DNA of 64,000 nt from Alphaproteobacteria bacterium (GTDB taxonomy: Bacteria > Pseudomonadota > Alphaproteobacteria > UBA9219 > RFNS01): positions 186,001 to 250,000 of the forward strand of contig WGMR01000003.1 of NCBI GenBank assembly GCA_016124955.1, written 5' to 3'. The notes under the pieces are model-generated. The model had not been told where the DNA came from and did no database searches. It was given only the letters and a program-made list of their open reading frames with translations. Positions 53,464-56,855 of the stretch are shown piece after piece (within the stretch, counting starts at the first letter, position 1; each line of letters starts with the position of its first letter). The position numbers were made by a program, and so were the translations under genes.

Positions 53464-54921
53464 TTATCCGGCCTGACAAGACCTTTTCGCATCCGGTACA
53501 GTTTTAATAATATCTTCTGCAATCATGCCTGGCTTATGGTGGCGCGCCGCAGCGCCATGCAGCCAGCATGCTGCGCAAGCCGCTGCAAAAGCAGGAACTT
53601 TCTGTGCGAGCAGGCCGACGATAATCCCGGCCAAAACATCCCCTGCGCCTGCAACGGCCAGCCATGGCGGAGCATTACTGTTAATAACTGCCATACCCGT
53701 AGGTGCGGCAATAACGGTATCTGAACCTTTTAAAAGCACGGTACACCCAGCCATACGGGCGGCTGAGCGCGCCCGCAAAAGCTTGTCCTGATCCGGGTCG
53801 ATCAAACGGGCGAACAGACGCCCGAACTCCCCGTCATGCGGAGTCAGCACGCAATCTTCGTGCAAGGCCGCAAAAAGCTCCTGCGGTTTGGCGGCAAAGC
53901 TTGTCAGCGCATCGGCATCAAGCACGCAGGGCCTGCGCGTCGCCAGTGCCTGCAATACAAAATTCCGTGTCGCGGCGCCAACACCCGCGCCCGGCCCGAT
54001 CAGCAAAGCGTTCTTGCGGTCATCTTCAAGCGCCAGCTTCCAGCCACCATCCGATACCATCGGTTGCACGATGACGCTTTCAAGGTTGGCCGCATAGGTA
54101 GCGGCGGCACTTTCCGGCGCCGCGATCGTCACAAGCCCTGCCCCGCTGCGCTGCGCCGCCCTTGCGGCAAGCCGTGCGGCCCCGGTCATCGGCCCCCCGA
54201 AGATCAAAACATGGCCGTGATCGTATTTGTGTTCGTCAGCCTGCGGTTCATGCAGCCATTGCTGCCACAGGCCGGGCTTATTCTCGGCCGCGCGCGGCGC
54301 AATTTCCTCGATACAGTTTTCGTCAACACCGATATCGCTGACCAGCACCTCGCCGCACAGGTCCCTGCCGGGCAAAAGCAAATGCCCCGGCTTCTTGCTG
54401 GTAAAGGTAACGGTAAGCCCCGCACGCACGGCCATGCCCATGGCCTTGCCGGTATCGCCCTGCACACCGCTCGGGATATCGATCGCGACCACGGCCTTTT
54501 TATTCTGGTTCAGCGCCATAATCAGCTCGCGGTATGGCGCGCCAACCGGCCTGTTCAGCCCGGTGCCGAAAAGCCCGTCTATGAAAAGCTGCGTGCCTGT
54601 CCAATCGATGTCTTCGGGTGCAATCGTCCGGCCATGCCAACGGGTAAAAGCGATTCCGGCATCGCCGGTAATCTTGTAGCTGCTGTCGAAGCAGGCCACG
54701 CAAACAGGCCAGCCGGATTCCCGCAATTCTTCGGCCACAATAAAACCATCGCCGCCATTATGCCCGGGACCACACAGCACAACCGTGGCGCGCGGCGAAT
54801 ACCGCTCCCGGATCACGTCGGCGACGGCCGTGCCGGCCCGTTGCATCAAAACGATGCCCGCAGTTCCGGATTGTATGGTGGCGTCATCGGCGCGTGCAGT
54901 TTCAGCGCATGTCATCAGCAT
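53464..54921 (-). CDS. nnr: Bifunctional NAD(P)H-hydrate epimerase / dehydratase
   Basis: Repairs damaged NAD(P)H hydrates: the N-terminal YjeF_N domain epimerises, the C-terminal ribokinase-like domain dehydrates with ADP or ATP. About 485 residues. Motifs: GTAGIVLMQRAGTAVA, CGPGHNGGDGFIVA and DIPSGVQGDTG in the first half; HGHVLIFGGPMTGAARLAARA-type start (DHGHVLIFGGP), LTPHDGEFGRL and AVAGAGDVLAGIIVGLLAQ in the second. I prefer the start at 54921 (MLMTCAETARAD), aligned with relatives; an in-frame ATG at 54966 adds 15 residues. In many alphaproteobacteria this gene sits before glnB-glnA; here it is inverted and glnB is missing. Confidence 0.94.
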   Translation of the reverse strand: MLMTCAETARADDATIQSGTAGIVLMQRAGTAVADVIRERYSPRATVVLCGPGHNGGDGFIVAEELRESGWPVCVACFDSSYKITGDAGIAFTRWHGRTIAPEDIDWTGTQLFIDGLFGTGLNRPVGAPYRELIMALNQNKKAVVAIDIPSGVQGDTGKAMGMAVRAGLTVTFTSKKPGHLLLPGRDLCGEVLVSDIGVDENCIEEIAPRAAENKPGLWQQWLHEPQADEHKYDHGHVLIFGGPMTGAARLAARAAQRSGAGLVTIAAPESAAATYAANLESVIVQPMVSDGGWKLALEDDRKNALLIGPGAGVGAATRNFVLQALATRRPCVLDADALTSFAAKPQELFAALHEDCVLTPHDGEFGRLFARLIDPDQDKLLRARSAARMAGCTVLLKGSDTVIAAPTGMAVINSNAPPWLAVAGAGDVLAGIIVGLLAQKVPAFAAACAACWLHGAAARHHKPGMIAEDIIKTVPDAKRSCQAG

Positions 54922-55056
54922 GTATTTTGCCCAGGTCCCGGCGTTCAGTGGTTCGGCGTGAATCATCTCAAGCGAAGGTCCGTTAGTTATCAGAAAAAAC
55001 AGTTAAAGCAATTCCGATTACGGACCCGCAGGGCGCGGGGCAAGATAAAACCTGAA

Positions 55057-55133
55057 TGGGGCGACCGACGGGACTTGAACCCGCGACAACTCGGATCACA
55101 ACCGAGGGCTCTACCAACTGAGCTACGGCCGCC
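55057..55133 (-). tRNA. tRNA-His (GTG)
   Basis: Minus-strand tRNA with encoded CCA and a C discriminator facing an extra 5' G (position -1), the identity mark of tRNA-His. Acceptor GCGGCCG pairs with CGGTCGC (one G-T); anticodon stem CTCGG/CCGAG with loop TTGTGAT gives GTG; T-arm GCGGGTTCAAGTCCCGT. A strong terminator lies only 16 bases upstream, so its promoter is unclear. Confidence 0.96.
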
Positions 55134-55148
55134 ATAATCCAGGGTGGC

Positions 55149-55183
55149 AAAAACAAAAAAGCCCGGGGTTTATGCCGCCGGGC
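55149..55183 (-). terminator. Intrinsic terminator upstream of tRNA-His
   Basis: On the minus strand GCCCGG / CCGGGC form a 6-bp GC stem around an 11-base loop, followed at once by TTTTTTGTTTTT. No minus-strand protein gene ends here; the only upstream minus-strand promoter visible is at 55236-55263, so this would end a transcript of about 78 bases. Confidence 0.7.
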
Positions 55184-55229
55184 CTTGATCTGGTCAAGTC
55201 TGTCATGCAATACAGACACGAATGACTAA
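55152..55229 (-). ncRNA. Candidate small structured RNA between glnA and tRNA-His
   Basis: A transcript from the consensus promoter at 55236-55263 would run to the terminator at 55149-55183. It would fold as three hairpins in a row: GTCTGT / ACAGAC with an 8-base loop (about 55200-55219), CTTGA / TCAAG with a 5-base loop (about 55184-55199), and the terminator stem. No protein family fits. It could be a free small RNA or an attenuated leader of tRNA-His. Prediction only; no known RNA family recognised. Confidence 0.45.
55169..55197 (-). promoter_or_regulatory. Possible tRNA-His promoter inside the terminator
   Basis: Minus-strand TTGACC (55192-55197) and CATAAA (55169-55174) are 17 bases apart. 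The start would fall in the right arm of the terminator stem, so this transcript would escape termination and reach tRNA-His with a leader of about 30 bases. The -10 is moderate (4/6). Confidence 0.35.
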
Positions 55230-55235
55230 TCCTTG

Positions 55236-55263
55236 ATATTATTTCACACGGCAAACTTGTCAA
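55236..55263 (-). promoter_or_regulatory. Strong sigma-70-type promoter, minus strand, divergent from glnA
   Basis: TTGACA (55258-55263) is a perfect -35 and TAATAT (55236-55241) a good -10, 16 bases apart. Transcription would run away from glnA through three hairpins into a terminator before tRNA-His. The site lies about 95 bases upstream of the glnA start and could interfere with glnA transcription from the other strand. Confidence 0.6.
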
Positions 55264-55358: not shown

Positions 55359-56771
55359 ATGTCCGACTACAAAAAGGTAGCAGAACTTATCAAGGCCAAT
55401 GACGCCCAGTACATAGACCTGCGCTTCACCGATCCGCGCGGCAAGATGCAGCATCTGACCATGAATGTTTGCATGCTCAAGAGCAAAGGTGATTTTGAAG
55501 ACGGCGTCATGTTTGACGGCTCCTCGATCGCCGGCTGGAAGGCCATCAATGAATCCGATATGACCTTGATGCCCGATCTGGAAAGTGCGGTGGTTGACCC
55601 GTTCTTCGCCCAGCCGACTGTCGCTATTTTCTGCGACGTGCTTGAACCTGCAACCGGTAAGCCCTATGTGCGCTGCCCGCGCTCGATCGCCAAGAAGGCG
55701 GAAGCCTATCTGAAATCTTCGGGCATCGGCGACACCGCCTATTTCGGCCCCGAAGCGGAATTCTTCGTGTTCGACGATGTGCGCTTCGCCGTGACGCCGA
55801 ACCACACCTTCTACAAGCTGGATTCCAACGAAGGCCCCTACACCAGCGGCAAGGAATATCCGGAAGGCAACCTCGCCCACCGTCCGCGCGTGAAGGGCGG
55901 CTATTTCCCGGTTCCCCCGGTCGATAGCGCACAGGATATGCGCACAGAGATGCTCGAAGCCATCAAGGCAATGGGCGTCGAGATCGAAAAGCACCACCAT
56001 GAAGTGGCCGCTTCGCAGCACGAGCTGGGCATCAAGTTCAGCACCGTCACCAAGTGCGGCGACAACATGCAGATCTACAAGTACTGCATCCAGCAGGTTG
56101 CCGCCGCTTTCGGCAAAACCGCGACCTTCATGCCGAAGCCGGTGTTTGGCGATAACGGCTCGGGCATGCACGTACATCAATCGATCTGGAAGAAGGGCAA
56201 GCCCGCCTTCGCAGGTTCGGGCTATGCCGGCCTGTCCGATACCGCCCTGTACTACATCGGCGGCATCATCAAGCACGCCAAGGCGATCAACGCGATCACC
56301 AACCCGACGACCAACAGCTACAAGCGCCTGGTCCCCGGCTATGAAGCGCCCGTGCTTCTGGCCTATTCGTCGCGCAACCGCTCGGCCAGCTGCCGCATCC
56401 CGCATGTGAGCAGCCCGAACGGCAAGCGCATGGAAGCCCGCTTCCCCGATCCGCTCGCCAACCCCTATCTGGCCTACGCGGCCATGCTGATGGCGGGTAT
56501 CGACGGGATCAAAAAGAAGATCCACCCTGGCAAGCCGATCGACGAAAACCTATATGAACTGCCGCCGGACAAGCTGGCGAAGGTTCCGACGGTTGCCGGT
56601 TCGCTCAAGGAAGCCATTGATGCGCTCGAAAACGACCACGACTTCCTGACGGCAGGCAAGGTCTTCAGCGAGGACATGATCGAATCCTACCTCCTTCTCA
56701 AGAAGGAAGAATGGGATCGCTTCCGCATGACCCCGCACCCGGTTGAATATGATATGTACTATTCGTCGTAA
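55359..56771 (+). CDS. glnA: Glutamine synthetase type I
   Basis: Makes glutamine from glutamate, ammonium and ATP; main ammonium assimilation enzyme, dodecameric. The 470-residue protein has [13 protein letters not shown], the metal-site [43 protein letters not shown] and [11 protein letters not shown]. The tyrosine of NLYELPPDK is the site adenylylated by GlnE in this subfamily. AGAGG precedes the ATG. The leader contains a small hairpin (GCAACG-AACC-CGTTGC, 55294-55309). glnB, usually just upstream, is not here, and I found no -24/-12 promoter by eye. Confidence 0.98.
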
Positions 56772-56819: not shown

Positions 56820-56855
56820 AATGGCAGCTATGGTTCGCATAGCTGCCATTTTTTT
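56820..56855 (+). terminator. Intrinsic terminator of glnA
   Basis: A perfect 13-bp stem (AATGGCAGCTATG / CATAGCTGCCATT) with a 5-base loop (GTTCG) is followed by a run of T (56849-56855). It lies about 50 bases after the glnA stop. The same bases encode the first codons of the following gene's signal peptide. Confidence 0.85.

Follow-up and report, generated by a model that had tools for sequence, protein, structure and literature searches.

Does the promoter and terminator pair on the minus strand between glnA and tRNA-His encode a small RNA of its own, or is it the beginning of the tRNA-His transcript? In the window, that is, the whole 64-kb stretch of DNA analyzed here, a preliminary description had recognized a promoter, two compact hairpins and a GC stem followed by a T-run, and had proposed a free-standing small RNA, possibly tied to nitrogen metabolism. 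We consider it likely, judging from sequence comparison, that the tRNA-His(-nnr) unit has this element as its 5′ leader and that an intrinsic terminator separates the promoter from the tRNA. The features of the locus are as follows.

55263-55258, minus strand: promoter −35 element TTGACA, from a pattern scan; TTGACAA-N-TTTG recurs 5′ of tRNA-His across the order
55241-55236, minus strand: promoter −10 element TAATAT, spacer of 16, from a pattern scan
55149-55229, minus strand: predicted leader RNA of about 75–80 nt, from a start placed by the −10 element to the end of the T-run
55149-55184, minus strand: intrinsic terminator, stem-loop plus T-run, from folding and shuffles; equivalents in 11–13 of 24 genomes of the order
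55057-55132, minus strand: tRNA-His (GTG), single copy in the assembly
53464-54966, minus strand: nnr, probably co-transcribed with tRNA-His
55359-56771, plus strand: glnA (glutamine synthetase), divergent neighbour, outside the element

The near-consensus promoter of the preliminary description, TTGACA-N16-TAATAT, was found again at 55263-55236 with a 10/12 match, the joint best in the 14 kb scanned, and an exact TTGACA-N16/17-TAATAT occurs only once in the 1.93-Mb assembly, at the tRNA-His locus. When relatives were aligned ungapped from the −35 element, they had in common TTGACAA-N-TTTG and an AT-rich −10 region, beyond which conservation was slight, save for a weak CTGTC-like motif some 42 nt away from the −35. 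This motif, which stands at a near-fixed distance from the promoter in L004, L008, L010, L011, L017, L020 and L027, might act as an RNA signal close to the start or serve the divergent glnA promoter as its −35. On the plus strand, a promoter-like site directed towards glnA (55213-55242: CAGACA N18 TATTAT, the second hexamer being preceded by TG) overlaps the −10 of the minus strand, and a single bidirectional promoter may therefore serve both glnA and tRNA-His. L002 (G016) has two tandem copies of TTGACAAAT, 22 nt apart and about 150–180 nt upstream of tRNA-His, which suggests a duplicated promoter element.

The GC stem plus T-run was also present as described (55184-55149): the stem GGCCCGGCGGCATAAACCCCGGGCT forms a 25-nt hairpin at 55184-55160 (−15.8 kcal/mol) that begins about 45 nt past the predicted transcription start, and is followed immediately by the T-run TTTTTGTTTTT at 55159-55149. 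An equally strong terminator no more than 60 nt from the tRNA appeared in about 2% of dinucleotide shuffles, and compact intrinsic terminators are very few in the 64-kb window; besides this one, another stands just past glnA at 56848. A terminated transcript of about 75 nt is likely, in agreement with the size proposed earlier (~78 nt, or 75–80 nt), and the northern band predicted there may well exist. On the other hand, the two compact hairpins said to precede the GC stem did not emerge as distinct structure: the 46 nt 5′ of the terminator gave a z of −0.96 (37 of 200 shuffles folded as well), the minimum-energy fold of the 79 nt did not show two separate hairpins, and the z of −3.7 for the whole 79 nt is owed mainly to the terminator. 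With the interval from promoter to terminator folding only as well as shuffled sequence, these two extra hairpins were given no weight.

The earlier statement that no other feature of this strand would require a terminator here overlooked tRNA-His itself, which lies on the same strand (55132-55057), 15 nt beyond the T-run, and which this promoter must feed; the extra G of the tRNA (position −1) can be read from the sequence at 55133. No second tRNA-His gene was found by searching the assembly, and a DNA search for further copies returned the locus itself and one cross-match to another tRNA. No convincing second promoter for tRNA-His was found between the terminator and the gene when the window and the relatives were scanned: −35/−10 pairs with the −10 beyond the stem reached 4–8/12 in 13 loci (6 in the window, and none possible in G006), compared with 8–10/12 for the upstream promoter. 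Because tRNA-His is single-copy and has no other convincing promoter, its transcription must, as far as the sequence tells, proceed from the TTGACA promoter through the terminator hairpin. The locus has the layout of a leader attenuator, an intrinsic terminator between a promoter and the first gene on the same strand. Beyond the tRNA, nnr, whose product we take by similarity to be an NAD(P)HX epimerase/dehydratase, starts 90 nt further on with only a weak hairpin in between (−7.5 kcal/mol); the order tRNA-His then nnr is found in many relatives, and the two are probably co-transcribed. Partial second matches to the 3′ half of tRNA-His were seen shortly downstream of the intact gene in two relatives (G026:C55:49937-49984 and G017:C30:50448-50497), the kind of trace that remains when integrative elements attach at a tRNA.

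To evaluate recurrence, we compared the surroundings of tRNA-His in 24 genomes of the order; a terminator counted as strict if it had ΔG ≤ −11 kcal/mol, a T score of at least 3.7 and a distance to the tRNA of no more than 60 nt. Such a terminator stood 5′ of tRNA-His in 11 of the 24 genomes, which are related and hence do not represent independent events, compared to 0.74 expected from dinucleotide shuffles; G017 and G025 have terminators slightly under the cut-off, with weaker G-U pairs. Controls run with the same code were nearly empty (other tRNAs: 1/38 in the window's genome, a long and loose stem before tRNA-Phe, and 0/37 in G013, 1/75 in total; tRNA-His of other Alphaproteobacteria: 0/35), which argues for a leader attenuator that recurs beyond chance. 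In the other Alphaproteobacteria a TTGAC promoter often stands immediately 5′ of tRNA-His. Where glnA is divergent, the terminator cannot belong to an upstream gene; L013 (G024), counted among the 11, and L025 (G020) are ambiguous, with a same-strand gene just upstream. About 11 of the 24 genomes (for instance L004, L009, L012, L014 and L016), among them a member of the same family (G001, L004), have no clear terminator, showing that it is dispensable. A very strong terminator (−22 kcal/mol) was also seen 98 nt upstream of a tRNA-Val (GAC) in the window's genome (L125, G000:C6).

In the recurring terminators of relatives the T-run comes directly after the stem, and the stems keep their pairing although their sequence changes. 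For the g11 stems (three genomes), 96% of cells pair, against 46–56% in slid versions, and one pair is changed on both sides; covariation in these three sequences was not beyond shuffles, and the g8 terminators were left out of the count because their alignment was too poor. Conservation of the stems in relatives that keep the neighbourhood, on which the preliminary description had staked its proposal, held for the terminator stem and failed for the others.

These results bear differently on the explanations that compete with a tRNA-His leader. A gene for a trans-acting regulatory small RNA with its own terminator, tRNA-His being made by incidental read-through, would suit the compact promoter-to-terminator unit, whose size is typical of small RNAs, and has a precedent in GraL, the aborted greA leader reported to be active in trans (PMC6829880). 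However, RNA length, counted up to where the T-run ends, varies across relatives between about 42 and 127 nt, with only about 16–20 nt ahead of the terminator in g11, and the leader sequence is not conserved, so that no conserved body or seed is found; Rfam scans of the window and relatives at gathering and relaxed thresholds returned the tRNA alone, along with weak matches that look like chance, and the leader ahead of the terminator is no more structured than shuffles. Nor does the promoter–terminator pair stand apart from the gene that follows, the promoter being the only convincing one for tRNA-His. With an unconserved leader and a tRNA that has no other convincing promoter, the free-standing small RNA lacks support, and we regard it as distinctly unlikely. 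The proposed tie to nitrogen metabolism fared no better: G026 keeps the promoter–terminator–tRNA-His unit in a recX neighbourhood with glnA absent from 7.8 kb upstream, so there the element goes with tRNA-His and not with glnA, and simple patterns revealed no sigma-54 or NtrC-like site, as a nitrogen-regulated element would have beside its promoter, in the 226-nt intergenic region of the window. The absence of glnB that had been pointed out was borne out, as the P-II (glnB/glnK) family had no match in the 99%-complete assembly (genome G000) that has glnA. Lack of P-II is unusual for the class.

A conditional attenuator, in which a specific sensor (a leader peptide, T-box-like tRNA binding, a metabolite or a protein) governs a terminator/antiterminator switch, would fit the classical layout of a terminator between a promoter and an essential gene (PMC2965389), and leaders of up to 127 nt could house such a sensor. 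Yet a conserved leader element is lacking, bar the weak CTGTC-like motif, and pairing of an antiterminator with the 5′ arm of the terminator was never above shuffles, in a scan to which control by proteins or polymerase is invisible; the sole low value, in L017, was an artefact of a wrongly chosen hairpin. A T-box riboswitch was rejected for want of a covariance-model match in the Rfam scans, and a His leader-peptide attenuator because there is neither a run of His codons nor a conserved start codon; in the window a single GTG frame, which continues through the tRNA, contains two dispersed His codons ahead of the T-run. A sensor-driven switch is accordingly possible, though on the doubtful side. 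The hairpin and U-run might instead be a non-terminating RNase III or RNase E processing site in a long pre-tRNA leader. AU-rich single strands beside hairpins are typical RNase E sites, and the leader is unusually long for a tRNA, but the stem-plus-T-run form is that of an intrinsic terminator, with the T-run recurring right after the stem, and other tRNAs of the same genomes have no such element, so we consider processing very unlikely. That a terminator-like hairpin without function arose by chance could be argued from its absence in some genomes of the order; with 11 observed against 0.74 expected and controls nearly empty, this is highly improbable.

Most likely, then, the candidate small RNA is the start of the tRNA-His transcript and not a gene of its own, and the ~75-nt RNA is best read as the aborted leader of the tRNA-His(-nnr) unit. 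RNA polymerase would initiate at the TTGACA/TAATAT promoter, and part of transcription would halt at the GC hairpin and U-run, releasing a leader RNA of ~75 nt. Polymerases that read through would yield pre-tRNA-His, from which RNase P would cut off the leader, and probably also nnr mRNA. We infer that the terminator is active in the cell and leaky, and that it sets or regulates the supply of tRNA-His. Because promoter and terminator recur and the leader does not, we hold a ligand-sensing riboswitch to be less likely than a throttle that is fixed or that works via RNA polymerase and Nus factors. The failure to find a T-box, a His leader peptide or antiterminator pairing favours such a throttle as well.

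The closest known systems resemble this locus in layout. Attenuators with intrinsic terminators in the 5′ leaders of protein operons, the subject of a 2010 survey by Naville and Gautheret (PMC2965389), have likewise a promoter, a short non-coding leader that evolves fast, an intrinsic terminator and a gene on the same strand; in contrast, the gene here is a tRNA, and we recognized neither a sensor nor an antiterminator. The sole remark on tRNA in that paper is that BIME repeats placed upstream attenuate a tRNA reporter (PMC2965389). In the E. coli greA leader, a terminator near the promoter stops about two thirds of transcription, giving RNAs of 37–59 nt, and about one third reads through (PMC6829880). 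It shares with our locus the terminator shortly after the promoter and, as we propose here, the short leader RNAs and the partial read-through; unlike here, its downstream gene is protein-coding and its regulation is GreA-dependent, and the likeness is one of layout, with no sequence relation claimed. E. coli rrn leaders, in which early pausing and attenuation occur, offer promoter-proximal termination control in a stable-RNA operon, whereas rrn operons depend on boxA-type antitermination; a search of the assembly yielded no 16S gene with which boxA could be compared. T-box riboswitches, too, are terminator-controlled leaders tied to tRNA biology, but they precede amino-acid genes and sense uncharged tRNA, and none was matched by Rfam here.

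Attenuators are known mainly upstream of protein genes. In the literature that we searched, of which coverage was partial, no native terminator that separates a tRNA from its promoter came to light. Such a terminator ahead of a single-copy tRNA gene, recurrent in an order and nearly absent before other tRNAs, would mean that termination, in addition to promoter strength, sets how much of one tRNA is supplied. Predictions of small-RNA genes from a promoter plus a terminator should include a search for a same-strand tRNA further down. At this locus, the cell probably throttles its single tRNA-His gene in a manner normally seen before protein genes. It is conceivable, although we would hold it only tentatively, that a whole order of uncultured Alphaproteobacteria has placed its only tRNA-His gene under regulated premature termination, which would amount to an attenuator for a tRNA and by which histidine decoding capacity would be adjusted, perhaps by feedback.
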